A DNA stretch of 64,000 bases, from the NCBI RefSeq assembly GCF_900129505.1, contig NZ_LT670818.1, positions 5,179,001 to 5,243,000 on the forward strand. The letters run 5' to 3'. This document shows positions 12,676-56,963 of this stretch, piece by piece. The DNA is from Bradyrhizobium erythrophlei. GTDB lineage: Bacteria > Pseudomonadota > Alphaproteobacteria > Rhizobiales > Xanthobacteraceae. The notes below the pieces were generated by a model. That model saw nothing but the letters and a program-made list of their open reading frames with translations. It searched no databases and was not told the origin of the DNA. The position numbers were made by a program, and so were the translations under genes. Every line of letters begins with the position of its first letter. Within the stretch, counting starts at the first letter, position 1.

Positions 12676-13677
12676 ATGATGACGAGCACGCCGAGCGTAA
12701 GCCCCGGAAGAGTAAACTCGCCAGATGGTGGTACAGATCGAGCTGAAGTTGACTTTCGAGATTTGGAGCAGATCAGACCGCCGGTCGGTATCAAATCCTG
12801 GCAGTCAAGTGACGATAGGTTTCTTCATCCCACTGTCCAAATTGCGCCGGTCGATTCCGTAAAGCGTCTCGGTACTGGTCGTCCCGGTTGGTTCGTGGAG
12901 AACGTACATGCGCCGATTGGAAGGAGGGTCGAACTTCAATTTCAAGGTCCTGTTCACCTCTTGGCAATGTACAATGAGGGAGGCCGCCGGGACGGGGAAA
13001 CTTCAATTGACGGATTTGCGCCGTCCAAGATTCGGAATGTTGCGAAGAAGCTTACGTTCGTCCCGGCCGGTTGCGGCTATCGAGAGTGGCTTGAAACCGC
13101 CGCGTCCACCCGCTTGACGTTTCTGTATTTGGATCCAACCGTCCTCCGAAACGATGGAGGAGACGACTATGCGGCGAGAATACATTTCGAGGACTCCGGT
13201 GTTTGGGAAACCGCAACCAAGTTGAAAAGCGCGATCGAGAATGGGCAAGCAAAGAGAACGCTCTACCTGTCCGCTCTCTCTAGCGTGCTCGCAATTGAGC
13301 TGTCCCGCTGTTACGATAACGCTGCTCGTGATACGGCCCTGAATCGTGGAGGCCTGGCTTGTTGGCAAAAGCGAGCTGTCGTGGGCTATATTGAAGAACA
13401 TCTAGGCGAACAGATTTGTCTCAGTACGCTTGCGCAACTCGCCCGTCTAAGCCAGCACCATTTTTGTCGGGCCTTCAAACAATCTTTCGGGGTTCCGCCG
13501 CATCATTACCACGTACAAAGGCGCATTGAACAAGCCAAACTGCTCTTGGCAGATCGATCAATCTCGATCACGGACATCGGGTTTACGCTTGGCTATTCTC
13601 AAACGAGCTCGTTCAGCGTGGCCTTTCGCAAAAATACAGGCTGGACACCGAGCGAATATCGCAGGGAGTTCAAATAG
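12676..13677 (+). CDS. AraC-family transcriptional regulator
   Basis: 333 residues from the ATG at 12676 (a GTG three codons upstream is possible; AGGTGA precedes). The C-terminal 100 residues carry two helix-turn-helix units: LSTLAQLARLSQHHFCRAFK and ISITDIGFTLGYSQTSSFSV, ending in the family signature FRKNTGWTPSEYRREF. The N-terminal 220 residues are an AraC-type sensing domain of unknown ligand. The glutathione transferase gene follows 224 bp downstream and is a plausible target. Confidence 0.88.
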   Translation: MMTSTPSVSPGRVNSPDGGTDRAEVDFRDLEQIRPPVGIKSWQSSDDRFLHPTVQIAPVDSVKRLGTGRPGWFVENVHAPIGRRVELQFQGPVHLLAMYNEGGRRDGETSIDGFAPSKIRNVAKKLTFVPAGCGYREWLETAASTRLTFLYLDPTVLRNDGGDDYAARIHFEDSGVWETATKLKSAIENGQAKRTLYLSALSSVLAIELSRCYDNAARDTALNRGGLACWQKRAVVGYIEEHLGEQICLSTLAQLARLSQHHFCRAFKQSFGVPPHHYHVQRRIEQAKLLLADRSISITDIGFTLGYSQTSSFSVAFRKNTGWTPSEYRREFK

Positions 13678-40556: not shown

Positions 40557-40914
40557 GCGGCTCTCCTTGGCTACCATTGCGGGAATGAAGTCGTGACAAC
40601 ACGCTTGGGCTAGGCGTCCCGCAGAAGGGCGCAGATGCCCACCTCGTTCACTGGCAACGCCAGGCAGCGCGTCGGCTGTCGCTCCCTGCGTCCTGTGCCA
40701 GCGGCCGCTCCGCGGCCGGTTGAAGTTAGGGGCAACAAGCTGCGCAAATCTTTTGAAAATCTGCTGCGAATTTAGTGATTCGGTCGCAAATCGGATTGCT
40801 CCCAGAACGACGGGAGAGTCGCTCTTGCCAATTCAGTTCGACGAAGCGAACTCTAGGGCTGGACTATCGGGTCAAAGTCCAAAATTGTGGCGTTGGAGTC
40901 GCGAAGGGGGGCAG
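40557..40914. other. Divergent intergenic region
   Basis: About 360 bp between the aldehyde dehydrogenase operon and the cyclase gene. The AT-richer part (40735-40800) probably contains the cyclase promoter. No repeat or clear operator seen. Confidence 0.4.
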
Positions 40915-42684
40915 ATGGTGACTGAGCGCGTAGAGCGCCGGCTGGCGGCGATATTGGCTGTCGATGTCGCGGGCTATTCGCGCCTGATGGGTTCTGATGA
41001 ACTTGGAACCCTTGCCGCCCTGAAGGCCGCTCGGCGTGACATCGTCGATCCCGCCATTGCCGCGCATAGTGGCCGGATCATTAAGACAACAGGGGATGGA
41101 ATGCTGGTCGTATTCGCCAGCGTGGTCGATGCCGTCACCTGCGCGATGTTCGCGCAATCTCAGATGGCACAACTAAAGGGCGTGCCGCAGAGTATCGCAT
41201 TTCGGATCGGCATCAACGTGGGTGATATCATTATTGAGAGCGACGATATCTTTGGTGACGGCGTCAATATCGCGGCAAGGGTCGAGAATGAGTGCGAGCC
41301 AGGGGGTGTTTGGCTATCCGACGACGCCTATCGGCAGGTGCGGGGGAAGACAACATTTGCGTTTGACGATCTCGGTGAGCGCTCGCTGAAGAACATCGAG
41401 CGGCCCGTTCGGATCTATTCCGTGCGTTCGGCCGGGCATTCCCCGGCCATGAGGGTCGCGTCGCCATCAGAATCCAAGAAGCCCCCGTTGCCTCCCGACA
41501 GGCCCTCGATCGCGGTGCTGCCGTTCTCCAACATGAGCGGAGACCCCGAGCAGGAGTATTTCGCCGACGGCATGGTGGAGGACATCATAACCGCGTTGTC
41601 GCATTTCAAGTCGCTATTTGTAATCGCTCGCAATTCGAGTTTCACTTATAAAGGCAGGGCGGTGGACATAAAGCAGGTGGGGCGCGAACTTGGCGTTCGT
41701 TATGTGCTGGAAGGTAGCGTGCGCAAGGCGGGCGGGCGGATGCGTATCACCGGCCAGCTCATCGAGGCGGTTACCGGTGCACATCTTTGGGCGGACAAGA
41801 TCGACGGCGCCTTGGAAGATATATTCGATCTCCAGGATGAAGTCACAACTAGAGTAGTGGGAGCGATTGAGCCTTCCATTACGCGGGCAGAAATCACTCG
41901 GGCGCATGTGAAATCGACTTTCAGCGTCGATGCCTATGACCTCTATCTGAAAGCCCTTGCAGCCCACTATTCGCAAACTCGTTCCGACATCGACAGGGCG
42001 CTGCAATTGTTGGAGGAGGCGCTCCGCCTCGACGCGTCTTACGCCTGGATCAAAGCATTTGCTGCCTACATACTTTGCATCAAGATAGGTCAGGGCTGGG
42101 GTACCCCCGAGGATCGAGAGAAAGCGACGCGCTTTGCTCGTGAGGCCCTGCTGTCCGGGAGTGATGAACCGAAGACGAATGCATTTGCCGCTCACGCGCT
42201 CGGATGGCTTGCGGGAGAGCATGACGTCGCATTGGCTGCCATCGGAAGAGCGCTGCATTCAAACCCGAATTGTTTCGACGTTCTGATCCGAAGCGGTTGG
42301 GTGCACGCATGGACCGCCGACTTCGATCCTGCCGTCGAGCATTTCTTGCGCTGCGTTCGATTGAATCCGGTTGATCCCCTGCTGGGACATGCGTATTGCG
42401 GGCTCGCCTTCGTCCACAATCTGAAAGGGGAATACGAAGAGGGGACCGAGTATGCCAAGCTTACGGCCCACAATATGCCAGGATGGATTTTTGGTTGGGT
42501 TCACTTGGCCATTTCGTCGGCTTACATCGGCAATTTTCAGGAGGCGAGAGCAGCCGTCGGCCGCATTCTGGAGCTCAACCCGTCGTTCTCTGTGAAGCAG
42601 TACTGCGTCATTTCGTCGTCCAAGCATGATTGGATGTTGGAGAAGGCCGCCGAGGGTCTACGTCTGGCCGGGATTCCCGAATAA
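40915..42684 (+). CDS. Class III adenylate/guanylate cyclase with TolB-like and TPR region
   Basis: 589 residues from the ATG at 40915. Residues 5-175 form a class III cyclase domain with the metal-binding Asp residues in VDVAGYSRLM and TTGDGMLVVF and the transition-state residues in GDGVNIAARVE. Residues 190-330 are the conserved extension (PSIAVLPFSNMSGDPEQEYF) found in many rhizobial cyclases, followed by TPR-like repeats. No membrane segment. It would make cAMP (or cGMP); the Crp-type regulator 3.7 kb downstream is a possible receiver, though there is no direct evidence. Confidence 0.9.
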   Translation: MVTERVERRLAAILAVDVAGYSRLMGSDELGTLAALKAARRDIVDPAIAAHSGRIIKTTGDGMLVVFASVVDAVTCAMFAQSQMAQLKGVPQSIAFRIGINVGDIIIESDDIFGDGVNIAARVENECEPGGVWLSDDAYRQVRGKTTFAFDDLGERSLKNIERPVRIYSVRSAGHSPAMRVASPSESKKPPLPPDRPSIAVLPFSNMSGDPEQEYFADGMVEDIITALSHFKSLFVIARNSSFTYKGRAVDIKQVGRELGVRYVLEGSVRKAGGRMRITGQLIEAVTGAHLWADKIDGALEDIFDLQDEVTTRVVGAIEPSITRAEITRAHVKSTFSVDAYDLYLKALAAHYSQTRSDIDRALQLLEEALRLDASYAWIKAFAAYILCIKIGQGWGTPEDREKATRFAREALLSGSDEPKTNAFAAHALGWLAGEHDVALAAIGRALHSNPNCFDVLIRSGWVHAWTADFDPAVEHFLRCVRLNPVDPLLGHAYCGLAFVHNLKGEYEEGTEYAKLTAHNMPGWIFGWVHLAISSAYIGNFQEARAAVGRILELNPSFSVKQYCVISSSKHDWMLEKAAEGLRLAGIPE

Positions 42685-43790: not shown

Positions 43791-44105
43791 GTGTTAGCCG
43801 GTGCCGATGACCTTGCGGCTGCCTTCGTGCGACTCGGGCCGCGCAGGATTGCTGAACAGCCGTTTCAAGGCGCAATTTGCAGGACAGACGCCGCTCCGAT
43901 CCAGGTATCGCTGGTCACGGCCACCCGGCACACCGTGCCTCGTCTTGCTTCGCACATTGCCACGAGCACGGACGATCTTTGCTTTGTCAATCTCCAGCTC
44001 GAAGGGGTGGGGCGTACCGCGCAGCGCGGTCAAGAACAGATCAGTGCGATCGGCGACGCAGGCTTTGTCGCAGTTGCGACAATCGCACGCATAACAGTCG
44101 CGTAA
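43791..44105 (+). pseudogene. 5' half of an AraC-type regulator
   Basis: About 104 codons that match the N-terminal AraC-binding domain of a family in which DDLCFVNLQLEGVGRTAQRG and the preceding ATRHTVPRLASHIA are typical. The sequence stops at 44105 without any helix-turn-helix, and no continuing frame follows. Confidence 0.55.
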
Positions 44106-44154
44106 CGTCGTAGCGCCCGTCGCTCGGGCCGAAATCAGGAAAACGGAGAAAGCA

Positions 44155-44625
44155 ATGTTCTTTGAACATGTCGAGGCGAGCTGCATTTCCGACGAATCGA
44201 TGCCTTGGATACCGCTTGGCATCGCGCCGGGCGTCGAGGTCAAATTCTTCAAGGCCGACCCGATCCGAGGCGAGGTCATCGCCCTGCTGAAGGCGCCGGC
44301 GGATGCCAAATTGCCTCGCCATCACCACAGCGGAACTGTCGTTGTCTACACCTTGAAGGGTAAGTGGAAATACAAGGAGCACGATTGGGTCGCGGGCCCC
44401 GGCAGCATCGTCTACGAAATCGCCGCGTCGACTCACGCGCCGGAAGCCGTGCCGGACGGCGGGCCTGAAGTGGTTGTCCTTAACATCGTCAGCGGAGATC
44501 TCGTGTATCTTAACGACGACGACAGTGTGATGGCCACGGCGAATTGGCGCAGCGCCGCCAAGCAATATTTTGGCTACTGCAAGAAAAACGGCATTGAGCC
44601 CCGCGACATCACGGCGTTCGGCTAA
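44155..44625 (+). CDS. Cupin, 2,4'-dihydroxyacetophenone dioxygenase-like
   Basis: 156 residues with a cupin barrel; LPRHHHSGTVVVYTLKGKW near residue 54 carries the metal-binding His cluster. It resembles the 2,4'-dihydroxyacetophenone dioxygenase family, iron enzymes that cleave a carbon-carbon bond in aromatic ketones. The next gene is a hydroxyacyl-CoA dehydrogenase 64 bp on, which fits a small catabolic operon. The exact substrate is not known. Confidence 0.75.
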   Translation: MFFEHVEASCISDESMPWIPLGIAPGVEVKFFKADPIRGEVIALLKAPADAKLPRHHHSGTVVVYTLKGKWKYKEHDWVAGPGSIVYEIAASTHAPEAVPDGGPEVVVLNIVSGDLVYLNDDDSVMATANWRSAAKQYFGYCKKNGIEPRDITAFG

Positions 44626-44689: not shown

Positions 44690-45595
44690 ATGGATCAGGT
44701 CACCGTCGCCGGATCAGGCGTCCTGGGCTCTCAAATTGCGTTCCAATGCGCATACAAAGGCTGCGACGTGCGCATCTACGACATCGATCCTGCAGCCATC
44801 GCGCGGCTCTCGCAGAAATGGCGCGAGCTGAGCACCGTCTATCGGAAGGATCTGAAAGCCGACGATGCTGCGATCGACGCGACCGTCGGTCGTCTCCGGG
44901 CGGGATCGGATCTTGCGGAAGCGGTCCAAGGGGCGGATCTGGTGATTGAGGCCGTACCCGAGAGCGTGGCGGTGAAACGCCGCTTCTATGAGGCGCTTTC
45001 TGTTGTCGCGCCCAAGACGACGATATTCGCAACCAATTCGTCTACGCTTCTTCCGAGCCTGCTTGCGCAATTCACGGATCGGTCCGAACGGTTTCTTGCG
45101 CTCCACTTCGCCAGTCGCGTCTGGAGAAACAACATTGCCGAGGTCATGCGACACTCGGGAACCGATGACAAGACGTTTGACAGCGTGATCGCCTTTGCCG
45201 AACGGATCGGCATGGTTCCAATCGCCCTACACAAGGAGCAGCCCGGCTACGTCATCAATACACTTCTGATCCCTTGGGTGCGCGCCGGAATGAGCCTTGT
45301 CGTGAAAGGCGTCGCTAGTCCGCATGACGTTGATCGGACTTGGATGATCGCCGGTGGTGGCGATGCGGGCCCCTTCGCCGTGCTGGACCTCGTCGGACTG
45401 CGGACGCCCCTGCAAATCCTCACGGCCGCGGCCGAAGCGGGCGACGCTGCCGCTGCAGAGGAAGCGACATGGTTGAGGCGCGAATACATCGACAGGAACA
45501 AGTTGGGAATCGAAACAGGCGAGGGATTCTATAAATATCCCCATCCCGCCTATCGCCGCGCCGACTTCGTCCGACCGCGCGCAATGAAAGCCTGA
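44690..45595 (+). CDS. 3-hydroxyacyl-CoA dehydrogenase
   Basis: 301 residues, start after GAGGAGCAGCGAAC. N-terminal NAD-binding fold (VTVAGSGVLGSQIAF), catalytic Ser region ATNSSTLLPS and His in LALHFASRVW, then a C-terminal helical domain (KEQPGYVINTLLIPW). It oxidises 3-hydroxyacyl-CoA with NAD. No fused hydratase. Likely co-transcribed with the cupin gene. Confidence 0.9.
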   Translation: MDQVTVAGSGVLGSQIAFQCAYKGCDVRIYDIDPAAIARLSQKWRELSTVYRKDLKADDAAIDATVGRLRAGSDLAEAVQGADLVIEAVPESVAVKRRFYEALSVVAPKTTIFATNSSTLLPSLLAQFTDRSERFLALHFASRVWRNNIAEVMRHSGTDDKTFDSVIAFAERIGMVPIALHKEQPGYVINTLLIPWVRAGMSLVVKGVASPHDVDRTWMIAGGGDAGPFAVLDLVGLRTPLQILTAAAEAGDAAAAEEATWLRREYIDRNKLGIETGEGFYKYPHPAYRRADFVRPRAMKA

Positions 45596-45708: not shown

Positions 45709-46416
45709 TCACACTTCGCCCGGATCCTCGCTCGCCCTGAGCCGCTCAAGGGCCTCTACATTCTGGATCGTGAGAGAGGTGTAGCTCGTGGTGACGATAC
45801 CGTCCTGCTCCAAGCTTTTCAGCAAGCGATTGATCGTTTGACGACCAACGCCGATCATCACTGCGAGATCCTCTTGCGATAGCCGCATTTCGATGACGAC
45901 TCCGTTTTTTGTCCTCTTGCCATGGCGGTCAGCCAACCTCAAAAGTTCATGCGCCAACAAATAAAGAGGCCGATGGTTGCGGTGAATGATCAGGTACTGG
46001 GTCGTGATCCGAAAATGATCGCATAGAAGCCTGACAAACGCCGAGTAATGCTCGACACTCGCGCCTGCCAGCGAATTAAAGCGCTCCTGACTGAGTTGAA
46101 AAAGAACGGTCTCGCCGATCGCGAACGCGTCGTAACCATGCGGCCTTCCGTCCAGCGCCGACGTGGTACCGATCCACGAACCCGGCGAAGTCAGTACCAG
46201 AAACGAGGGCTGACCCGACATGGAAAAGCTCGTCAGCCGAATCTGCCCCGAGATGAGCGCAATCATGCCGTCGGCGCAGTCGCTCGCCGAATAGATCAAG
46301 GTATCGTTCAGTCTGCGCACACGACCGAGCCGGAGGATGCTGTCCGCCAGTTCGGGCGGCAATCCAGCAAACCACTTGTTCCTCCCCAGAACAGTCTTCA
46401 GGACTGTCTTGTTCAT
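45709..46416 (-). CDS. Crp/Fnr-family transcriptional regulator
   Basis: 235 residues. N-terminal cyclic-nucleotide-binding-type beta roll (ADGMIALISGQIRLTSF, then SPGSWIGTTSALDG), dimer helix, and a C-terminal helix-turn-helix with MRLSQEDLAVMIGVGRQTIN. There are no Cys clusters for iron-sulfur, so it is not a classical Fnr. Its start codon is 32 bp from the palindrome TTGTCG-N6-CGACAA (46450-46467), and the same box precedes a lipid gene 1.9 kb away. I infer that this protein binds the box, regulating itself and the lipid genes. Confidence 0.88.
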   Translation of the reverse strand: MNKTVLKTVLGRNKWFAGLPPELADSILRLGRVRRLNDTLIYSASDCADGMIALISGQIRLTSFSMSGQPSFLVLTSPGSWIGTTSALDGRPHGYDAFAIGETVLFQLSQERFNSLAGASVEHYSAFVRLLCDHFRITTQYLIIHRNHRPLYLLAHELLRLADRHGKRTKNGVVIEMRLSQEDLAVMIGVGRQTINRLLKSLEQDGIVTTSYTSLTIQNVEALERLRASEDPGEV

Positions 46417-46440
46417 CCGTCGTTCTTACCAAGAAAAAAC

Positions 46441-46491
46441 CGGAAAAGATTGTCGTTTCAGCGACAATTTGGGTCTCTGAGGCGAACTAGC
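46441..46491. promoter_or_regulatory. Crp-type operator box 1
   Basis: A 51-bp block that begins CGGAAAAG and contains ATTGTCG-N6-CGACAAT (46449-46468). It matches box 2 (48342-48392) at 45 of 51 positions by hand alignment, including GCGAACTAGC at the same offset at the right end. It lies between the divergent Crp-type gene and the first acyltransferase gene. Confidence 0.75.
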
Positions 46492-46664
46492 CATTGATCT
46501 CCGGCCGGCGAATGGCCGGGTTACTTTCGCTGACGATCGGCTCGCGATGCTGGAAGGCGAGCTCTGGCCGTTCCGCGACCATGGGCCGTTCGGAATGGCC
46601 TATGCGTCTCCCGAGGGAAAGTTGAGAAACCGGCCCAAATTTCAGCAGTTGGGAGTCGTCGGAA

Positions 46665-48194
46665 ATGGCCCGAACCATCCGAAAGCTCACGGCAATCGAC
46701 GCATCCTACCTCTATATGGAAACACCGGAGGTCCCCATGCACATCGGTAGCATGGCGATATTCCAGTTACCCGACAACCATCGAGAGGATTTCTTCGAGG
46801 GCTTAAAGGCGATGCTCGGACGCCGTCTGCACCTCGCGCCGATGCTGACATGGAAGCTGGCCCACACCCCGTTGGACATCGATCATCCGAGGTGGACCGA
46901 AGACGAACAGTTCGATATCGACCGCCACATATTCCGTGGCGCGCTCCCGGCGCCATCGGATCACGCGACGCTTCAACGCATCGTCGGCTGGCTGCACGCG
47001 AAGTTGCTCAATCGCGCTCGGCCGCTATGGGAGGTCTACGTCTTCGATTGCCTGCCCGACGGCCAGGTCGCAATCTACTCCAAAATGCATCACGCATGCA
47101 TCGACGGCGGCGCAGGTGCTGCCATGGCGCAGCTAATCTACGACGCCTCGCCCTCGCCCAGGGAAGTTGACGCTCCGCCGCCCCGCAAGCCGTCAAAGGA
47201 CGACGAGCGCGACTTTGTGTCGGCGCTAGTGGCTTCGTCGCTCGAATTTTGGACATCAGGAGAAAGAGACAAGTTGAGCGCGTCGGTCGAAGTCCCGCGG
47301 ACCGGAAAGACCGATCTTGCGTCGGTGCTCGTCGACTCGGCGATTCAGGAACTTCACCAGCGAAGCAAGTTTCTCGCTAGACTTCCCCAAGTCCTGAAAA
47401 TGGCGAATGAGCTTGGCAACAAGCTGATCGGTGCGCCAAGTCTCGACGATTTGAAGAAACTGGTCGCGCCGCCGACAATTATCAACGGCTCCATCTCCTC
47501 CGAGCGCAGCTATGCGGCCGTTACCCTGCCGATGTCGCGCATGAAAGCGATCGCCGCGAAATCGGGGACAAAACTGAATGACGTTGTGCTCGCCGTTTCG
47601 AGCGGCGTGCTTCGCGAGCACCTTCTCGGGCAAGACGCGCTCCCTCAAAAGTCGCTTACGGCGTTCGTGCCGGTATCTATCCGAGAAGCAGGCGACACGT
47701 CCGCGAGCAACAAGGTCATGGGCATGATCTGCAGGCTCAACACCGAGATCGAGGATCCGAAACTGAGACTTGAGGCAATCGTCGCCGATTCGGCGAAGTC
47801 GAAGGAACTAACCAGTCCCTTCAGACAGCTTACCCCTCTGGTCGAGGATTCGATCGCATTGGGCTCGCCCCTGGGAATCCAATTGATCTCGCTCGCATAC
47901 AGTCGCTCGAATCTGCCGGACTTACTTCCTCCGGCCGTCAATGTCGCCATCTCGAACGTGCCCGGGCCGAAGGTGGCCCTATACGCCAATGGAGCCGAAC
48001 TTTTGCACTCCTACCCTGTATCGATCGTGACGCACGGGATTGGATTGAATATTACGTTGCAAAGCTATCGGGACCATTTGGATTTCGGATTCACCGGGGC
48101 AGCGAACATTCTTCCGAACGTTAAGGCTCTTGCCGACTCCATGCCGACCGAGTTGGATCGACTGGAACGAGCGTGTGGGCTTGCTGCGTTCTGA
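46665..48194 (+). CDS. Wax ester synthase/diacylglycerol acyltransferase, copy 1
   Basis: 509 residues. Start region LTAIDASYLYMETPEVPMHI and the catalytic HHxxxDG motif as HHACIDGGAG near residue 145 identify the WS/DGAT family; the C-terminal NVAISNVPGPK is also typical. It transfers fatty acyl-CoA to a long-chain alcohol or diacylglycerol at the membrane, forming storage lipid. It is preceded by operator box 1 and starts a run of lipid genes. Confidence 0.92.
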   Translation: MARTIRKLTAIDASYLYMETPEVPMHIGSMAIFQLPDNHREDFFEGLKAMLGRRLHLAPMLTWKLAHTPLDIDHPRWTEDEQFDIDRHIFRGALPAPSDHATLQRIVGWLHAKLLNRARPLWEVYVFDCLPDGQVAIYSKMHHACIDGGAGAAMAQLIYDASPSPREVDAPPPRKPSKDDERDFVSALVASSLEFWTSGERDKLSASVEVPRTGKTDLASVLVDSAIQELHQRSKFLARLPQVLKMANELGNKLIGAPSLDDLKKLVAPPTIINGSISSERSYAAVTLPMSRMKAIAAKSGTKLNDVVLAVSSGVLREHLLGQDALPQKSLTAFVPVSIREAGDTSASNKVMGMICRLNTEIEDPKLRLEAIVADSAKSKELTSPFRQLTPLVEDSIALGSPLGIQLISLAYSRSNLPDLLPPAVNVAISNVPGPKVALYANGAELLHSYPVSIVTHGIGLNITLQSYRDHLDFGFTGAANILPNVKALADSMPTELDRLERACGLAAF

Positions 48195-48341
48195 AGGGGG
48201 ACGGCTCGCGGCGGTTTTGCGGAGCGCGCGCGTGGCGCCTGCGGGTGACGAGCGGGTCCTACGCGCGCTTGGCGCTGGGAGTGTCGGCGATCGCGGTTGG
48301 CAAAGAGCATCCTGACGATTGAGGATGCGATCTCCAAAAAA

Positions 48342-48392
48342 CGGAAAAGATTGTCGTCTCAGCGACAATTGGGGACGCCGAAGCGAACTAGC
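48342..48392 (+). promoter_or_regulatory. Crp-type operator box 2
   Basis: Second copy of the 51-bp block, with ATTGTCG-N6-CGACAAT at 48350-48369 and GCGAACTAGC at 48383. It lies 148 bp after the first acyltransferase gene and 80 bp before the alpha/beta hydrolase start. Confidence 0.75.
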
Positions 48393-48472
48393 TTTGCCGA
48401 TAAAAGCACCACGAGTTGATGCTGAAAAAATGCGGGACATTGCCGCAACAATCGGGAGGGAAACGCTCTGAC

Positions 48473-49312
48473 ATGGACGAGGCTGTTGACCGTTCTAAAC
48501 CGTCGTCGCGGCTGCTGCTCGCGCTCGAAGTGCGCGGGATTTGGGAATTCCAGGCCTTCCTTGCTGCCTATCCGCTGCTGCGGGGCGCGCCCCGGGGCGA
48601 TGGGCATCCAGTGCTCGTGCTGCCCGGTCTTGCCGCCAGTGACGTTTCGACCAAACCGCTGCGAACATACCTGAGCGCGCAGGGCTATGCCGCCCATGGT
48701 TGGAAGCAGGGTCCGAACCATGGCCCGCACTCCGGCGTCGAGGCACGAATAGACGCCAGGCTCGCCGAGCTCGCTCAGCGCTACAACCGTAAGGTCAGCT
48801 TGATCGGATGGAGCCTCGGCGGCGTCTTTGCGCGCGAGGCGGCGCGGCGATCGGCGGACCTGGTACGTCAGGTGATAACCCTCGGCAGCCCCTTCGCCAA
48901 TGAGCCAAAGGCGAGCAATGCCTGGCGACTCTACGAAGTCTTAAGCGGACGCCGAGTCGATGACTGGCATGGCCGCGAAGCCATGAAGCTTCCCCCGCCG
49001 GTGCCGAGCACGGCAATCTATAGCCGGAGCGATGGCATTGTCGCGTGGCAGGGCTGTTGCGAACAGGAGAGCGCGACGACGGAGAATATCGAGGTCGAGG
49101 GCAGCCATTCGGGGCTCGGATACAACCCCATGGCCTTGTACGCGATTGCCGACCGGCTTGCACTGCCGGAAGGCGATTGGCGGCCATTCGATCGCAGCGG
49201 GCTCCGCGGCCTCTTGTACTCCGATCCGCATCGCCGCGATGGCGATGGCGATAGCGAGACCACGCCGCGACCCGATCCAACCGTTGAGCAGTTTGCTCGA
49301 CACAGCGCCTGA
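48473..49312 (+). CDS. Alpha/beta hydrolase (lipase-like)
   Basis: 279 residues from the ATG at 48473, with GGGAGGG 12 nt upstream; an ATG at 48419 is also possible. The nucleophile elbow is LIGWSLGGVFAREAAR (Ser near residue 118), with VLVLPGLAASD as the oxyanion-hole region and GSHSGLGYNP as the probable catalytic His. Part of the lipid run; it might hydrolyse storage esters or activated acyl groups. Confidence 0.85.
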   Translation: MDEAVDRSKPSSRLLLALEVRGIWEFQAFLAAYPLLRGAPRGDGHPVLVLPGLAASDVSTKPLRTYLSAQGYAAHGWKQGPNHGPHSGVEARIDARLAELAQRYNRKVSLIGWSLGGVFAREAARRSADLVRQVITLGSPFANEPKASNAWRLYEVLSGRRVDDWHGREAMKLPPPVPSTAIYSRSDGIVAWQGCCEQESATTENIEVEGSHSGLGYNPMALYAIADRLALPEGDWRPFDRSGLRGLLYSDPHRRDGDGDSETTPRPDPTVEQFARHSA

Positions 49313-49350: not shown

Positions 49351-49791
49351 ATGGAGACGGACAGCAGGCAATCCACCAGCCCGGATGCGAGCGTGTTTCC
49401 CGGGATTGAGGATCTCAAGAAGCTGATCGAGAAATTCCAGTTGCCGAGCGTTGATATCGACGCGCTTATCGACTGGCAGCGCAGGGACATGGAAGCTCTG
49501 ACAGAGGCGAATCGCCAAGCTTCCGAAGGTCTCAAGGCGCTTGTGGAACGACGCAACGAGATCCTCGGCGAAACGCTGGCGGAATGGCAAGCGGCAGTCA
49601 AAGACGCCACAAGCGCCGAGGCGATCACGAAGCGGGCCGAGGCCGCAAAGCAGGGCGTGCAGAAAGCCATCGCGAATTTCCGTGAGCTTTCCGAGATGGA
49701 AGCGCAATCGCGCAACAATGCTTGGAAGATCGTGCAGGAGCGCATGCAGGAGAATATGGCAACCCTGCAGAAGCTGCTGCAACCAAAGTAA
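49351..49791 (+). CDS. Phasin-family protein
   Basis: 146 residues, start after AGAAGGACGAAATCC. Long amphipathic helices (DALIDWQRRDMEALTEANRQ, then GETLAEWQAAVKDA) match the phasin family. Phasins coat polyhydroxyalkanoate granules; next to acyltransferases this one may coat wax ester or triacylglycerol bodies. Confidence 0.82.
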   Translation: METDSRQSTSPDASVFPGIEDLKKLIEKFQLPSVDIDALIDWQRRDMEALTEANRQASEGLKALVERRNEILGETLAEWQAAVKDATSAEAITKRAEAAKQGVQKAIANFRELSEMEAQSRNNAWKIVQERMQENMATLQKLLQPK

Positions 49792-49969: not shown

Positions 49970-51676
49970 ATGAACGACAAGCCCTGGATCAACTCCTATC
50001 CCCCGGGCGTCCGCTGGGATGCCGAGATCGTGCCTGGACCGGTGCAGGGCATTCTGGATGATGCGGTGGCCAAATGGCCGGATCGCCCGGCGATCGACTT
50101 CATGGGCAAGCGGATTGCCTACCGCGATCTTGGCGACCTTGTGAACCGCGCGGCCAAGGGCTTGCAGCAGCTTGGGGTGAAGCCGGGTGTCCATGTCGGC
50201 CTGTATCTGCCGAACTCCCCGCACTATGCCATTGCGTTTTTCGGGGTCCTGAAGGCCGGCGGCACGGTGGTCAATTACTCGCCGCTCGACGCTGCTCAGG
50301 TGCTTGAGCACAAGATCGAGGACAGCCGCACCGACTTCCTCATCACGCTCGATATGACATCGCTCTATCCGCAGATGGCGGCCATGCTCGGCAAGACGCG
50401 ATTGAAGAAGCTGGTGGTTGGCACTCTCGCCGAACTAACCGGCAATCCCGACGCTGTGATGACCGAGCTGAAGGCCAGCCGGCAACTGAGTGATATCGCG
50501 TGGGGCGATCGCCAGATCAGGTTCGCCCAACTGCTCGACAATGATGGAGCTTTCCAAGCCTATCCTGTCGCCGATCCCGCCGAGACGATCGCAGTGCTGC
50601 AGTACACCGGCGGGACGACGGGTCAGCCCAAGGGCGCGATGCTGACGCACGCCAATCTCACAAGCACGTGCCAGCAGTACAGGGCAACCACCGCCGGAAC
50701 TCCTCCGATCCTTGTCGAAGGTCAGGAGCGCTTTCTTGCGGTGCTTCCGCCGTTCCACATCTATGCGCTCGCGGTGAATGTGCTGTTCGCTATTCTCCAG
50801 GGAGCGGAGATCATTCAGCACGCGCGCTTTGATCCGAAGGCCGCGCTCGAGGATATCTCAGCGAAACGGGTAAGCGTCTTCTGCGGTGTGCCCACGATGT
50901 TCACCGCGTTGATAAGCCATCCCGAAACTCCCAGGCACAGCTTGCGTACGCTCAAATATTGTGGCTCAGGCGGGGCTCCTTTGCCGCTTGAGGTCGCGCA
51001 GCAATTCGCCGCGATCACCGGCTGCAGTCTGAGCGAAGGCTGGGGTATGACGGAGACCTCGCCGGCAGGCACTTTCACGCCGGCCCAGAAGGATGGCACG
51101 CGAAAGGCTGGATCTTGCGGAATGCCGATGCCCGGAATCGTCATCAAGTTCCTGAGCCTTGACGATCCAAAGCAGTACGTCCCGCGCGGCGAACGCGGCG
51201 AAATCTGCATCGAGGGCCCGAACGTGATGAAGGGCTATTGGAACAACACGGATGCGACGGCCGAGGTGACGACGTTCGACGGCTTTTTGCGCACCGGCGA
51301 TGTCGGTTACATGGATGAGGACGGCTTCGTCTTCATCGTCGACCGCACCAAGGACATGCTGCTGTGCAGCGGCTTCAATGTCTATCCGCGCGTGCTCGAG
51401 GAGGCCATCTACAAGCACCCTTCGGTCGGGGAGGTCGCGGTGATCGGAGTCCAAGACCAATATCGCGGACAGTCGCCGAAGGCCTTCGTTAAGCTGAAGC
51501 AGGGCGCGGCGACGCTTACGCTCGACGAGCTGCAAAAGTTCCTGAAGGACAAGCTCGGCAAACACGAAATGGTGCAGGCGCTCGAAATCCGCGATGACCT
51601 GCCGAGAACGCCGGTCGGCAAGATCTCAAAGAAGGATCTGTACGACCAGGAGGAACGGAAGACCACGGCGGCCTAG
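49970..51676 (+). CDS. Long-chain acyl-CoA ligase
   Basis: 568 residues, start after AAGGAGGGAGGG. AMP-binding motif LQYTGGTTGQPKGAMLTH near residue 210, GWGMTETSP near residue 360, RTGDVGYMDEDGF near residue 443 and the C-terminal lysine region RTPVGKISKKDL. It activates fatty acids with ATP and CoA, supplying acyl-CoA to the two acyltransferases on either side. Confidence 0.92.
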   Translation: MNDKPWINSYPPGVRWDAEIVPGPVQGILDDAVAKWPDRPAIDFMGKRIAYRDLGDLVNRAAKGLQQLGVKPGVHVGLYLPNSPHYAIAFFGVLKAGGTVVNYSPLDAAQVLEHKIEDSRTDFLITLDMTSLYPQMAAMLGKTRLKKLVVGTLAELTGNPDAVMTELKASRQLSDIAWGDRQIRFAQLLDNDGAFQAYPVADPAETIAVLQYTGGTTGQPKGAMLTHANLTSTCQQYRATTAGTPPILVEGQERFLAVLPPFHIYALAVNVLFAILQGAEIIQHARFDPKAALEDISAKRVSVFCGVPTMFTALISHPETPRHSLRTLKYCGSGGAPLPLEVAQQFAAITGCSLSEGWGMTETSPAGTFTPAQKDGTRKAGSCGMPMPGIVIKFLSLDDPKQYVPRGERGEICIEGPNVMKGYWNNTDATAEVTTFDGFLRTGDVGYMDEDGFVFIVDRTKDMLLCSGFNVYPRVLEEAIYKHPSVGEVAVIGVQDQYRGQSPKAFVKLKQGAATLTLDELQKFLKDKLGKHEMVQALEIRDDLPRTPVGKISKKDLYDQEERKTTAA

Positions 51677-51803
51677 TCGGACTTTCGAAAGCCGGCGAAT
51701 GCCGATCCTCCGCAACGCCGCGAGGCGCATTCGACGCAATGGCGGATCGGCTCAGCCTCGCTGCCGCGGGGAAGCAGGTCTGAAACTCGAGGGAGGCAAG
51801 AAG

Positions 51804-53390
51804 ATGGACCAACTGAGCGGCATGGACGCCTCATTCCTGCATCTCGAAACGCCTGAGACGCCGATGCATGTCGGCAGCCTCATGCTCTTTGAGCTGCCTG
51901 AGGGTTACACGGGCGATTACTACGAGGCCGTCAAGGCGCTGCTTGGCAAGCGCCTCCACCTGTCGGCGTTTCTGAACCGCAAGCTGGCGCAGATGCCGTT
52001 CCAGCTGGCCGAGCCGGTCTGGATCGAGGACGACGACATCGACCTCGACTATCACGTTCGCACCGTCACGCTGCGCCGGCCAGGCACCATGGCCCAGCTC
52101 GAACAGCTCGTCGCGCGCCTGCACGCCTCGCTGCTCGACCGCAGTCGTCCGTTGTGGGAGATGTACGTCATCGATGGCCTGGAAGGCGGACTGGTCGCCT
52201 TTTATACCAAGGCTCATCACAGCGGGGTCGACGGTAAGGCCGGCGTCGAACTCGCGAAGGTGCTCTATGACACCTCGCCACAGATACGCGAGGTCCCGCC
52301 GCCGCGGCGCAAGCGCGCGAGCGGCCAATATCAACTCGGCGTCACCGAATTGCTGCAGGCGGCTGCCACCAATGCGGCCCAGCAATATCGCAAGCTTGCC
52401 GAGTTGTTGCCGGCAGCAGCCAAAGCGTTGGATACGGCGGCCAGAGTCGTTGCCAGCCAGCGGACGGAGAAAGGCGAGCGCTCGTTGAATCTCGGTCTCG
52501 CGCCGAGCACGATATTCAACGACTCGATCACCAATCAGCGCTCATACAGCACGATGTCGCTGTCTCTGGCCGACATCAAGGATCTGGGCAGGCGCGTTGG
52601 CGGCACCGTCAACACAATCGTGATGGCAATGTGCAGCATCGCGCTGCACCATTTCCTGAAGGAGCGGGATTTGCTGCCGAAGGAGCCGCTGATCGCGATG
52701 GTGCCCGTCAGCCTGCGCGTTGAGGGTGACGCGGCGATGAACAACCAGGTCGCCGCGGTTCGCGTGGATCTGGCGACCGACATCGAGGACTTGCCCGCCC
52801 GCTTCAGGGCGATCCACGCGTCGTCTGAAGCGGCCAAGGCCGTTGTGAGGGAGTTGAAGCCAGTGCTCGGGGTGGACATCCCGATCACAGGATCGCCCTG
52901 GCTTATGACCGGCTTGGCCTCGCTGCTCGGCCGTTCCAATCTCGTGAGCCGCTTTCCGCAGGTTGGCAACGTCGCAATCTCCAACGTCCCCGGACCACCG
53001 ATGACGCTCTACATGGCCGGGGCGAAAATGGCGCACTATTTCCCGGTTTCGATCGCCTATCACGGCAGCGCCTTGAATATCACGGTGCAGAGTTACGCCG
53101 GATTGCTCGAATTCGGCCTTACGGCTTGCCGTCGCATTCTCTCGCAGGACGAGTCCTATGAGTTGATCGACCACCTGCGCGCGGCGCTGCGGGAGATTCA
53201 GGCGCTGCCATCCGTCGCTGCGAGCGCTACGCCGCCAACAATACCGTCGAACGAGCCGGCCGCGGTTTCCACGAAGGGGGCATCGATAACGCCGGCGCCT
53301 CCCGTAGCCGCGCGTCAGGAGCTGCCAGCGGCAAAGGAAGCCGCAAGCGTCCAGTCGAGCAGCGAGGTAACGACGCCGCGACAGGATTGA
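51804..53390 (+). CDS. Wax ester synthase/diacylglycerol acyltransferase, copy 2
   Basis: 528 residues from the ATG at 51804 (GGGAGG upstream); the frame is open 70 codons further but without family features. MDQLSGMDASFLHLETPETP at the start, HHSGVDGKAG near residue 138 and NVAISNVPGPPMTLYMAGAK near the end mark the WS/DGAT family. The last 60 residues are an added Pro/Ala/Ser-rich tail of low complexity that copy 1 lacks. The two copies are clearly diverged. Confidence 0.92.
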   Translation: MDQLSGMDASFLHLETPETPMHVGSLMLFELPEGYTGDYYEAVKALLGKRLHLSAFLNRKLAQMPFQLAEPVWIEDDDIDLDYHVRTVTLRRPGTMAQLEQLVARLHASLLDRSRPLWEMYVIDGLEGGLVAFYTKAHHSGVDGKAGVELAKVLYDTSPQIREVPPPRRKRASGQYQLGVTELLQAAATNAAQQYRKLAELLPAAAKALDTAARVVASQRTEKGERSLNLGLAPSTIFNDSITNQRSYSTMSLSLADIKDLGRRVGGTVNTIVMAMCSIALHHFLKERDLLPKEPLIAMVPVSLRVEGDAAMNNQVAAVRVDLATDIEDLPARFRAIHASSEAAKAVVRELKPVLGVDIPITGSPWLMTGLASLLGRSNLVSRFPQVGNVAISNVPGPPMTLYMAGAKMAHYFPVSIAYHGSALNITVQSYAGLLEFGLTACRRILSQDESYELIDHLRAALREIQALPSVAASATPPTIPSNEPAAVSTKGASITPAPPVAARQELPAAKEAASVQSSSEVTTPRQD

Positions 53391-53470: not shown

Positions 53471-54820
53471 ATGCATCCGCAGCCTGCACATAATGTATTG
53501 TCGTCGGCGCTGGAAAACCCGTCTGTCAAGGCCGTATTCTTGAAGATCGACTGGCGTCTCCTGCCGCTGCTGCTCGTTGCGTACATGGTCGCCTATCTGG
53601 ACCGTATCAACATCGGATATGCGCAGCTGCAGATGAAGCAGACCTTGCCGTTTGACGACGCGGTCTACGGCCTCGGCGCGGGCATGTTCTTCATCGGATA
53701 TTTCCTCTTCGAAGTGCCCAGCAATCTTCTTCTGGACAGAATCGGCGCGCGCAAGACGTTGTTACGCATCATGGTGCTCTGGGGCCTGGCCGCGTCCGCC
53801 ATGATGTTCGTATCAACGCCTCTCCAGTTTTACGTCGTGCGATTTCTGCTCGGCGTCTTTGAGGCGGGCTTCTTTCCGGGCGTCATTCTGTATTTCACTT
53901 ACTGGTATCCGTCAGCGCGGCGCGGGCAAGTGATTGCGATCTTCATGTCGGCGACCACGATAGGATCGCTTGTGGCGGGACCGCTGTGCGGATTCATTCT
54001 GAAATACTTCGATGGTTTCGCCGGTCTTCATGGCTGGCAATGGCTGTTCCTGGCGCAGGGATTACCCGCGATTTTTATCGGCTTTTTGGTTTACCTTCTG
54101 CTGAAGGACAAACCTGACCAAGCCCCCTGGCTCTCGACTGAGGAAAAGGCGGTGGTCGAGAATGCCTTCCGGCATGACATTAAGGAGGTCGCGGGTAAGG
54201 CTGACGGGACATTCTTGCAGATGCTGCAGGATCCGAAGGCCTATTTGCTGGCACTAGTCTATTTCTTTCTGCTGGGCGCCACTTACACAATGGTGTTTTG
54301 GGTACCGACCCTGATCCAGAGCTGGGGCGTCAAGGATCTGTTCCTCATCGGAATCTACGCGAGCATCCCAAATGCCGCCGGCATCATCGGTATGATCCTG
54401 ATTGGCCGCCATTCGGATAAGTGGCATGAGCGCCGATGGCACTTCGCCGTCTGCGTCGTCATTGCGGCGGTCGGTCTTTTCACAACCACCCTGTTCCAAG
54501 GGAATTTGGTCGGATCGATCCTGGCGCTCGCCGTCGCTGTCATCGGGATCGCCTCGGCGACTCCGCTCTTTTTTGCGCTGACGAGCGAGTATCTGTCGGC
54601 CGGGGCCGCCGCCGGCGGTCTTGCTCTCATCAGCAGCCTCGGAAACCTCGGTCCGGCGGTCAGCCCGTCAATCAACGGGTTAATCCTGAGAAGCACCGGC
54701 GACAATATATACAGCACTTACTTCGTGATGGCTTTGTACCTGCTGTCCGGAACGCTTCTATTGCTGGCGATGCGTCCAGCCTCGGTCAGAGGTCTACCGG
54801 CGGCCGCGTCCGCGCATTGA
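53471..54820 (+). CDS. MFS transporter, anion:cation symporter type
   Basis: 449 residues with twelve predicted membrane helices. VAYLDRINIGYAQLQM in helix 1 and LLLDRIGARKTLLRIMVLWG after helix 2 are typical of the ACS family (tartrate, phthalate, 4-hydroxyphenylacetate carriers). Likely imports an organic acid. Separated from the lipid genes by 80 bp. Confidence 0.9.
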   Translation: MHPQPAHNVLSSALENPSVKAVFLKIDWRLLPLLLVAYMVAYLDRINIGYAQLQMKQTLPFDDAVYGLGAGMFFIGYFLFEVPSNLLLDRIGARKTLLRIMVLWGLAASAMMFVSTPLQFYVVRFLLGVFEAGFFPGVILYFTYWYPSARRGQVIAIFMSATTIGSLVAGPLCGFILKYFDGFAGLHGWQWLFLAQGLPAIFIGFLVYLLLKDKPDQAPWLSTEEKAVVENAFRHDIKEVAGKADGTFLQMLQDPKAYLLALVYFFLLGATYTMVFWVPTLIQSWGVKDLFLIGIYASIPNAAGIIGMILIGRHSDKWHERRWHFAVCVVIAAVGLFTTTLFQGNLVGSILALAVAVIGIASATPLFFALTSEYLSAGAAAGGLALISSLGNLGPAVSPSINGLILRSTGDNIYSTYFVMALYLLSGTLLLLAMRPASVRGLPAAASAH

Positions 54821-55810: not shown

Positions 55811-56097
55811 TCATTTTGTTTTGGTTGATGTATTCTCTCCTAATAGCCGACCGGCCCCCAAATTGGACCCCAAATTGTCACCCAATATAGCGTTCCGATA
55901 CGCTGAATAGCTCGTCGGAAACGGACCGATCGCTGGGCCTTCGGGCGCGAAACCGCGCCGCCGAGGCCACCAGAACCAGAAAGCGCCGCCCCGCCAAACG
56001 TGGTGAGCGCGGTGTCAGCGTAGAATACCTCAATGCCGACGCCCGTCACCGGGTGGATGTCGAAAATGGGCTCATGTCGATTGCTGGATACTGTCAT
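55811..56097 (-). pseudogene. Small protein downstream of ardC, frameshifted
   Basis: From the ATG at 56097, which overlaps the ardC stop as ATGA. The start HEPIFDIHPVTGVGIEVFYA is sound, then near 55982-55992 the frame should change to give FWFWWPRRRGFAPEGPAIGP and FPTSYSAYRNAI, the usual continuation of this ArdC-linked protein, ending at 55811. One base is missing in the G-rich run. Function unknown. Confidence 0.65.
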
Positions 56098-56963
56098 GCC
56101 GCAATCTCCGCCGGCTCCGCGAGAGCCAAGCCGCGCAGGTAGTCGGCGGCCTTTGACGCCTGGCTGCAGGCTGTAAAGAATGCCCGTTTGTCAACCTTCA
56201 GAAGCTCAATCCATGAGGCGATATAGCCCGCGCTCCGCACGTCACCATCAAAGCCAAATTCCGCACATAGGAACGCGGCGCCCAACTCAGCAATCAGTTC
56301 CTCGGCTGCGTAATTGCGTGAGCCAAACCGGTTCTTCAAATCTCGATCGAGGCGCGACTTATGGCCCGACCAATGCGTCAACTCGTGGAATGCAACATTG
56401 TAGAAGTGATCCGCGCCCTTGAACCTAGCGAAGGCGGGCATCGAGATAAAATCTCGGCTTGGGATGTAGCAGGCTTCGCGGATGTCGGCGCCGGTTGAGT
56501 GTAGGAATGCGTCGGCAAGCTCGTCGCGCGTGTCAGGATTGCGAACGCGCATCGGCCTCCCGGTGCTGATGCCATCGGGAAGGTTCTCGCACTGGTCGAC
56601 ATTGAAGACGGTATACTCGCGCATCATTGGGATCAGGCGCGTTGCGGAGTTATCGTCCGCGCCTTGGTCCCGGACCTGCAATTGCTTCACGAAATAAACC
56701 TTGGTGCCGCGCTCGCCCTTGCGCACGTTGCCGCCCAACTCCAAGGCCTGCTTGAATGTGAGAAAACGCGGCTTGCGATAACCGGCCGCCTTCGCCATCC
56801 ACAACAGAACGACGTTGCATCCGGAGTAGGGGCGGTTGCTCACGGCATTGCATGGCGTATTCGCGCCGGGAGTTGCTGACCAAGGCTTGATCCAGGGCGC
56901 CGCGCCTGCTTCTAGCTCGGCAATGATGCGCGCAGAAACCTGCGAATACAGATCGCGTTTCAT
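56094..56963 (-). CDS. ArdC-like antirestriction protein
   Basis: 289 residues. N-terminal ArdC single-strand DNA-binding domain (MKRDLYSQVSARIIAELEAG, then WIKPWSATPGANTPCNAVSN) and C-terminal zincin-type metallopeptidase with HELTHWSGH and AAEELIAELGAAFL. ArdC proteins protect incoming plasmid or integrative DNA against host restriction. It is the best sign that this end of the window descends from a conjugative element; no transfer genes are seen. Confidence 0.9.
   Translation of the reverse strand: MKRDLYSQVSARIIAELEAGAAPWIKPWSATPGANTPCNAVSNRPYSGCNVVLLWMAKAAGYRKPRFLTFKQALELGGNVRKGERGTKVYFVKQLQVRDQGADDNSATRLIPMMREYTVFNVDQCENLPDGISTGRPMRVRNPDTRDELADAFLHSTGADIREACYIPSRDFISMPAFARFKGADHFYNVAFHELTHWSGHKSRLDRDLKNRFGSRNYAAEELIAELGAAFLCAEFGFDGDVRSAGYIASWIELLKVDKRAFFTACSQASKAADYLRGLALAEPAEIAA

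Follow-up and report, generated by a model that had tools for sequence, protein, structure and literature searches.

The stretch of DNA that was analysed (the window) comprises 64,000 nucleotides of the genome of Bradyrhizobium erythrophlei, positions 5,179,001 to 5,243,000 of contig NZ_LT670818.1. It carries a cluster of genes around a Crp/Fnr-type regulator, P0001, and the genes and features of this cluster are listed below in their order along the window.

40720-42684: class III cyclase ORF, 3.7 kb from repeat copy 1 to its end
44065..44082, no strand assigned: predicted operator, exact, TTGTCGCAGTTGCGACAA (the third palindrome discussed below)
44103..44108, plus strand: TAACGT, in what would be the class II -10 register of the third operator
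44155..44625, plus strand: Cupin_7 protein, probable regulon gene, a weak sequence relative of 2,4'-dihydroxyacetophenone dioxygenase
44690..45595, plus strand: 3-hydroxyacyl-CoA dehydrogenase (PRK08293 model above its cut-off), probably in the operon of the cupin
45709..46416, minus strand: Crp/Fnr-type regulator P0001, with cNMP_binding fold and HTH_Crp_2 domain, recognition helix GRQTINR and replaced cAMP-contact Glu and Arg
46435..46491, plus strand: 57-bp repeat, copy 1, containing the 46441-46491 box (repeat finder, alignment)
46450..46467, no strand assigned: predicted operator, exact, TTGTCGTTTCAGCGACAA, between the regulator and WS/DGAT-1 (pattern search)
46487..46491, plus strand: CTAGC, predicted -10 of a putative class II promoter toward WS/DGAT-1
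46665..48194, plus strand: WS/DGAT-1, of the wax ester synthase/diacylglycerol acyltransferase family (family match)
48336..48392, plus strand: 57-bp repeat, copy 2, containing the 48342-48392 box (repeat finder, alignment)
48351..48368, no strand assigned: predicted operator, exact, TTGTCGTCTCAGCGACAA, before the hydrolase operon (pattern search)
48388..48392, plus strand: CTAGC, predicted -10 of the putative hydrolase operon promoter
48473..49312, plus strand: alpha/beta hydrolase
49351..49791, plus strand: phasin (Phasin_2; domain match)
49970..51676, plus strand: AMP-binding acyl-CoA ligase (domain match and solved relatives)
51594..53390, plus strand: WS/DGAT-2, with a listed ORF start that overlaps the ligase gene
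53471..54820, plus strand: MFS transporter, with homologues in the cluster of the regulator in 8 of 11 genomes

The sequence relatives of the proteins encoded in the cluster point to the uptake of an acid and its activation with CoA. The ligase scores against solved feruloyl-CoA and fatty-acyl-CoA synthetases and against 4-coumarate ligases, and the MFS protein matches best the models of the D-galactonate and 4-hydroxyphenylacetate transporters, both below cut-off. The best scores of the cupin were obtained with an uncharacterised cupin, those with 2,4'-dihydroxyacetophenone dioxygenase being weak. For the hydrolase, the start at 48473 is preferred over the TTG at 48416, as the protein match in L021 and L034, the syntenic loci of two related genomes, begins there and GGGAGGG is located upstream of it. 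The WS/DGAT-2 ORF overlaps the ligase gene by 83 bases (51594-51676) and about 70 residues precede its catalytic domain; its true start probably lies further in than the listed one. Just downstream of the cluster an ArdC-type anti-restriction protein (ArdcN plus a zincin-like metallopeptidase; 56094-56963) is encoded, which is perhaps a sign of mobile DNA nearby.

An earlier inspection of the letters alone (the sequence-only reading) had drawn attention to two blocks, at 46441-46491 and 48342-48392, that match at 45 of 51 positions. Alignment confirmed this figure, and a repeat finder extended the blocks to 46435-46491 and 48336-48392, where 50 of 57 positions are identical (88 %). Apart from the second block, the window contains nothing that matches the first at more than 30 of 57 positions, and 200 single-base shuffles of a 16-kb stretch gave 32 at best. 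Each block contains ATTGTCG-N6-CGACAAT together with GCGAACTAGC at an identical offset, as had been reported. The distances given at the time, 25 bp from the first box to the start codon of the Crp/Fnr-type gene (46416, minus strand) and 3.7 kb to the cyclase, measured to the end of its ORF at 42684, also proved correct. Both boxes are real, but a third exact palindrome had been missed: it is located at 44065-44082, and the cupin start at 44155 follows 72 bp later. The genome-wide search for TTGTCG-N6-CGACAA that had been proposed as a check yielded 3 exact sites in the 9.18 Mb genome, all of them within 4.3 kb, while a control with the reversed pattern gave 0 exact sites in the same genome. 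Allowing one mismatch added 18 further sites over the whole genome, against 12 for the reversed control; as this is near background, the search gives no sign of a wider regulon.

Matches to the regulator at 1e-40 were obtained in 11 of 265 Bradyrhizobium genomes, that of the window included, one of which (G247) contains an N-terminal fragment. Together with G691, a member of another genus of the family (391 family genomes were searched), this gives 11 full-length regulator genes. A search at 1e-20 revealed an isolated HTH fragment of the regulator in G145, and an order-wide profile search at 1e-50 in 397 sampled genomes, with at most seven candidates scored per listed genome, returned only the regulator of the window itself. 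An exact site is present within 5 kb of the regulator gene in 9 of the 11 genomes (G000, G161, G162, G007, G018, G046, G164, G206, and G691); near the regulator in G252 and G200, the sites are imperfect only. The box thus occurs at orthologous loci, and the proposal of a dedicated operator paired with the adjacent Crp/Fnr-type gene is supported. A simple binomial calculation, in which an average genome of 8 Mb is assumed, gives ~1e-28 for this pairing, a number that is no true p-value because the genomes are related and not independent. When the ten full-length-regulator genomes other than G691 were scanned whole, 14 of their 19 exact sites were located in the cluster or at a second cupin operon; the remaining five lie elsewhere, three in G252, one in G018, and one in G164. 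In 8 of the 11 genomes, the start of the regulator gene itself is preceded at 25-33 bp by a site with 0-2 mismatches, and the scan used found no near-site at this place in G164, G206, and G691. In G145 and G247, which have only a fragment of the regulator, the exact operator was not found nearby. These remnants (an HTH or N-terminal fragment) are located at L025:10077-10289 and L039:9910-10209, with no exact operator near either.

The genes at these loci differ between two clades. In clade A (the window, G161, and G162), the regulator, WS/DGAT-1, hydrolase, phasin, acyl-CoA ligase, MFS, cupin, and dehydrogenase genes are present in all three genomes; WS/DGAT-2 is found in two of them and is absent in G162. 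In clade B (G007, G018, G046, G164, G206, G252, and G691), an SDR-SDR-SnoaL operon is flanked by sites in 7/7 genomes. An MFS gene is present in five of the seven, a relative of the hydrolase in two (in pieces in G007), and a ligase in one (G046), and no WS/DGAT match was obtained within the 16-20 kb examined per locus. In the more distant G200, a DLH-type hydrolase and an MFS protein, the latter assigned by Pfam only, are encoded beside the regulator. An MFS homologue is thereby found at 8 of the 11 regulator loci, or at 9 with G200. The name of a storage-lipid regulon, which the sequence-only reading had given to the system, holds locally, but not across the orthologous loci: a WS/DGAT gene lies beside the sites in 3 of the 11 genomes with a full-length regulator, and in seven others the sites flank the SDR-SDR-SnoaL operon. 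Relatives of WS/DGAT are present at 1e-120 in 243 of the 265 Bradyrhizobium genomes, and neither an exact nor a one-mismatch site was found near the second WS/DGAT relative of this genome (4695166), so that the regulator seems not to govern the acyltransferase that is common in the genus. Storage lipid would be a clade-specific part of the regulon and not its definition.

The explanation that we favour, with a probability of about 0.7, is that P0001 is a dedicated, probably cAMP-independent Crp/Fnr activator of a cluster for uptake and CoA activation to which lipid-storage genes have been added. As a dimer, P0001 (45709-46416) would bind to the 18-bp palindrome TTGTCG-N6-CGACAA and would activate transcription in a class II manner, from a site centred near -41 that is followed by a weak CTAGC -10. 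The predicted targets are the WS/DGAT-1 gene, the hydrolase-phasin-ligase-WS/DGAT-2-MFS operon, and probably the cupin-dehydrogenase operon; with a site beside its own start codon, P0001 would also control itself. P0001 would respond to a ligand different from cAMP; the likeliest candidates are an organic or fatty acid, a CoA ester thereof, or a product of the cluster. The genes for uptake and CoA activation would be the ancestral targets, the acyltransferases and the phasin having been added later in one clade, where they would store or buffer incoming acyl groups. Judged from the sequences, the regulon appears to be real and dedicated and of a kind that is already known, with a CooA-type operator and probably a non-cAMP ligand. 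A literature search at the level of titles and abstract starts, with subscription papers mostly outside its scope, returned no description of this regulon.

At class II Crp-dependent promoters, the centre of the site is located about 41.5 bp upstream of the transcription start and the -10 element lies at a fixed distance from it. At the promoters of both DGAT-1 and the hydrolase, all three clade-A genomes have a CTAGC that starts 19 bases behind the palindrome (6/6). CTAGC starts 18 or 19 bases beyond the palindrome at five of the seven MFS-side sites of clade B, and the others have CTACC or GTAAG; two of these loci (G018 and G252) are now without a recognisable MFS gene. At the hydrolase promoters of clade B, CTAGC is present in one of two (G046), and CTAGG is found in G007. 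The background of CTAGC in these loci is 2.1e-4 per base per strand. CTAGC was not found behind the cupin sites, which are followed by TAACGT, nor on the side of the regulator, nor on the SDR side in the relatives. The offset of CTAGC would put the centre of the palindrome at about -41, which is the class II place, and several members of the Crp/Fnr family appear to activate in class II mode (PMC12531629, in excerpt). That P0001 is instead a repressor, its palindromes blocking transcription until a ligand releases the protein, is considered unlikely. A site 25-33 bp from the start of the regulator could indeed block the regulator's own promoter, and regulators of this family can repress (PMC545781, in excerpt), but the palindrome is found at a nearly fixed distance upstream of CTAGC, in the place of a class II activator, at several unrelated promoters, whereas the site of a repressor would be expected to overlap or follow the start more often. 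Activation by P0001 is retained as the preferred mode of action.

P0001 has both domains of the Crp/Fnr superfamily above cut-off (PF00027, 44.3 bits; PF13545, 67.3 bits). The canonical phosphate-binding cassette of the superfamily and the Arg that is key to it have been described, as have the non-canonical versions in CooA and CprK (excerpts of PMC2246266). A cassette with Glu and Arg was not found in P0001 (WIGTTSALDGRPHGYDA). In the alignment to solved relatives, the best of which by sequence is 7pza, a putative cAMP-binding activator, the columns of the cassette Glu and Arg correspond to Thr84 and His93 of P0001. A wider alignment of 53 sequences was made of P0001 and those relatives with at least 200 residues among the 62 found. 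Position 93 is Tyr in 26 of these sequences, His in 24, Phe in 2, a gap in 1, and Arg in 0. At position 84, Val, Ile, Leu, or Thr predominate, and Glu is seen in the distant member P0061. Position 91, two residues ahead of the place where the cassette Arg is missing, carries a basic residue (Arg in 37 and Lys in 14 of the 53 sequences), where the solved relatives have Gln or Gly; this Arg/Lys may be a ligand contact. The place of the heme histidine of CooA, as located in the excerpted text of PMC2246266, holds His in 24, Tyr in 26, and Phe in 2 of the 53 sequences, and as His93 is not conserved, a conserved heme ligand is not supported.

These residues bear directly on the idea that P0001 controls neutral-lipid storage in dependence on cAMP from the class III cyclase nearby, as the sequence-only reading had suggested. 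The cNMP_binding Pfam match above cut-off, the proximity of the cyclase ORF (40720-42684), the presence of two WS/DGAT genes and a phasin gene in the cluster, and the conserved Arg/Lys two residues before the usual Arg would all fit such a role. The cassette Glu and Arg are replaced, though, with Tyr, His, or Phe at the Arg position in 52 of 53 sequences and a gap in one, and no counterpart of the cyclase ORF was found at the two syntenic loci examined, L021 and L034. Taken together, these two observations make cAMP control unlikely, and as the acyltransferases are moreover site-linked in only 3 of the 11 genomes, the cAMP-driven storage regulator as a whole is regarded as quite improbable. 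A Crp/Fnr activator with another ligand remains preferred. A precedent for a member of the family that senses a substrate in the cNMP pocket is CprK (excerpts of PMC2610375 and PMC2246266). CprK is a chlorophenol-sensing activator, the site of which has a four-base spacer (PMC2610375, likewise in excerpt) instead of the six bases found here, and its targets are different.

The recognition helix of P0001, GRQTINR, has Arg-Gln-Thr in common with that of the solved CooA chain 1ft9, SRQTTST, and R192, Q193, and R197 are invariant in 53/53 aligned sequences. The consensus site of CooA is TGTCGGCnnGCCGACA (PMC545781, in excerpt), with half-sites and spacing identical to TGTCG-N6-CGACA here. CooA is a CO-sensing Crp/Fnr activator (Rhodospirillum rubrum, Desulfovibrio), and no coo (CO dehydrogenase) genes were found among the neighbouring genes checked by Pfam in the window and the relatives. 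The operator of Crp is TGTGA-N6-TCACA, that of FNR/FixK is TTGAT-N4-ATCAA, and the Crp recognition helix has, at the place of Gln193, a Glu that contacts a base pair differing here. With cAMP-CRP, P0001 and its palindrome share the fold and the six-base spacer, but the half-site is TGTGA there and TGTCG here, and the Glu of the Crp helix is Gln in P0001. FNR/FixK belongs to the same superfamily as P0001, while both its operator and its spacer differ from those of the palindrome. The view that the box is neither a FixK/FNR nor a Crp site is upheld by this comparison.

As the genome contains 19 HTH_Crp_2 hits over cut-off, the protein that recognises the palindrome might be some other one, either a second Crp/Fnr member or a factor of unrelated type, and the P0001 gene might lie nearby by coincidence. 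Exact palindromes are also found in genomes without an orthologue of P0001. In 146 genomes, 67 exact sites were counted, 7 in four genomes with a full-length regulator and 60 in the other 142, which have no close full-length orthologue (0.42 per genome). The reversed control gave 31 sites in the same 146 genomes, the palindrome being about twice as common even without the regulator. An identical exact 18-mer with the inner sequence CCGCGG was observed in seven genomes without a close full-length regulator (G019, G023, G053, G102, G109, G117, and G144). The excess of palindromes where the regulator is lacking and the recurrence of this 18-mer indicate that some sites have another reason. For the sites of the cluster, a different reader is nevertheless very improbable, since an exact site is present near the P0001 orthologue in 9 of 11 genomes and R-Q-x-x-x-R is found in P0001 only among the 19 HTH_Crp_2 hits. 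One other hit, L073, has the R-Q and lacks the second R, and three hits carry an E-T-V-S-R helix, which we take to be associated with FNR/FixK. P0001 is kept as the candidate reader of the palindrome.

In B. erythrophlei GAS478 (L021; G161, contig C4), all three sites are present in the same intergenic places, that of the cupin at 13033. About 440 kb away from the cluster, this strain has the cupin-dehydrogenase operon a second time, with a fourth exact site in front of it. The proteins of this second copy (L042:6865-8395) are 94-95 % identical to those of the window, and it has kept its own exact operator (L042 at 8378). G162 (L034) has kept two of the three sites and has lost the one before the cupin. 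On comparison of the genome of the window with GAS478, similarity in the hydrolase and cupin intergenic regions begins at the box, the DNA upstream of it being unlike, while the intergenic region between the regulator and WS/DGAT-1 is conserved throughout and is, for that reason, less telling for the box. That the 57-bp blocks represent a recent duplication or the scar of a mobile element without regulatory meaning, as two boxes in one locus with 88 % identity over 57 bp might suggest, can practically be dismissed, because both copies have retained the palindrome and CTAGC in three genomes amid variation of the neighbouring bases, the DNA upstream of the hydrolase box is unrelated between genomes, and the palindrome occurs with another inner hexamer at the cupin operon and in relatives.

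The dedicated activator that is preferred here would form with its operator a clean and testable pair with a very small regulon. It ties a CooA-type half-site to an Arg-Gln-Thr recognition helix outside the CO sensors. The regulator seems to keep its DNA code while its targets differ, a catabolic-type operon on the one hand and lipid-storage genes on the other. A more specific version, which is offered tentatively and with the odds somewhat against it, is that a clade of Crp/Fnr proteins with the CooA code responds, through a changed pocket, to an acyl or aromatic acid or to the CoA ester of such an acid and that one lineage has been rewired to wax ester/triacylglycerol synthesis, linking uptake to storage. 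Knowledge of the ligand would reveal how the decision to store acyl groups in the form of neutral lipid is made in some soil Bradyrhizobium.

Two further stretches of conserved DNA were observed. Where the shared site faces the SDR/ligase genes, another conserved block, GAACTGCG and then TTG, lies 19 bases from the palindrome and occurs with variants (L022, L023, L024, L035, L036, L037, and L041). When the SDR side was read as a class I promoter, with TTG 19 bases behind the palindrome, no -10 was visible by eye. The leader from the box to WS/DGAT-1 (46492-46664) is well conserved in three genomes, and the indels in it argue against a single continuous reading frame.
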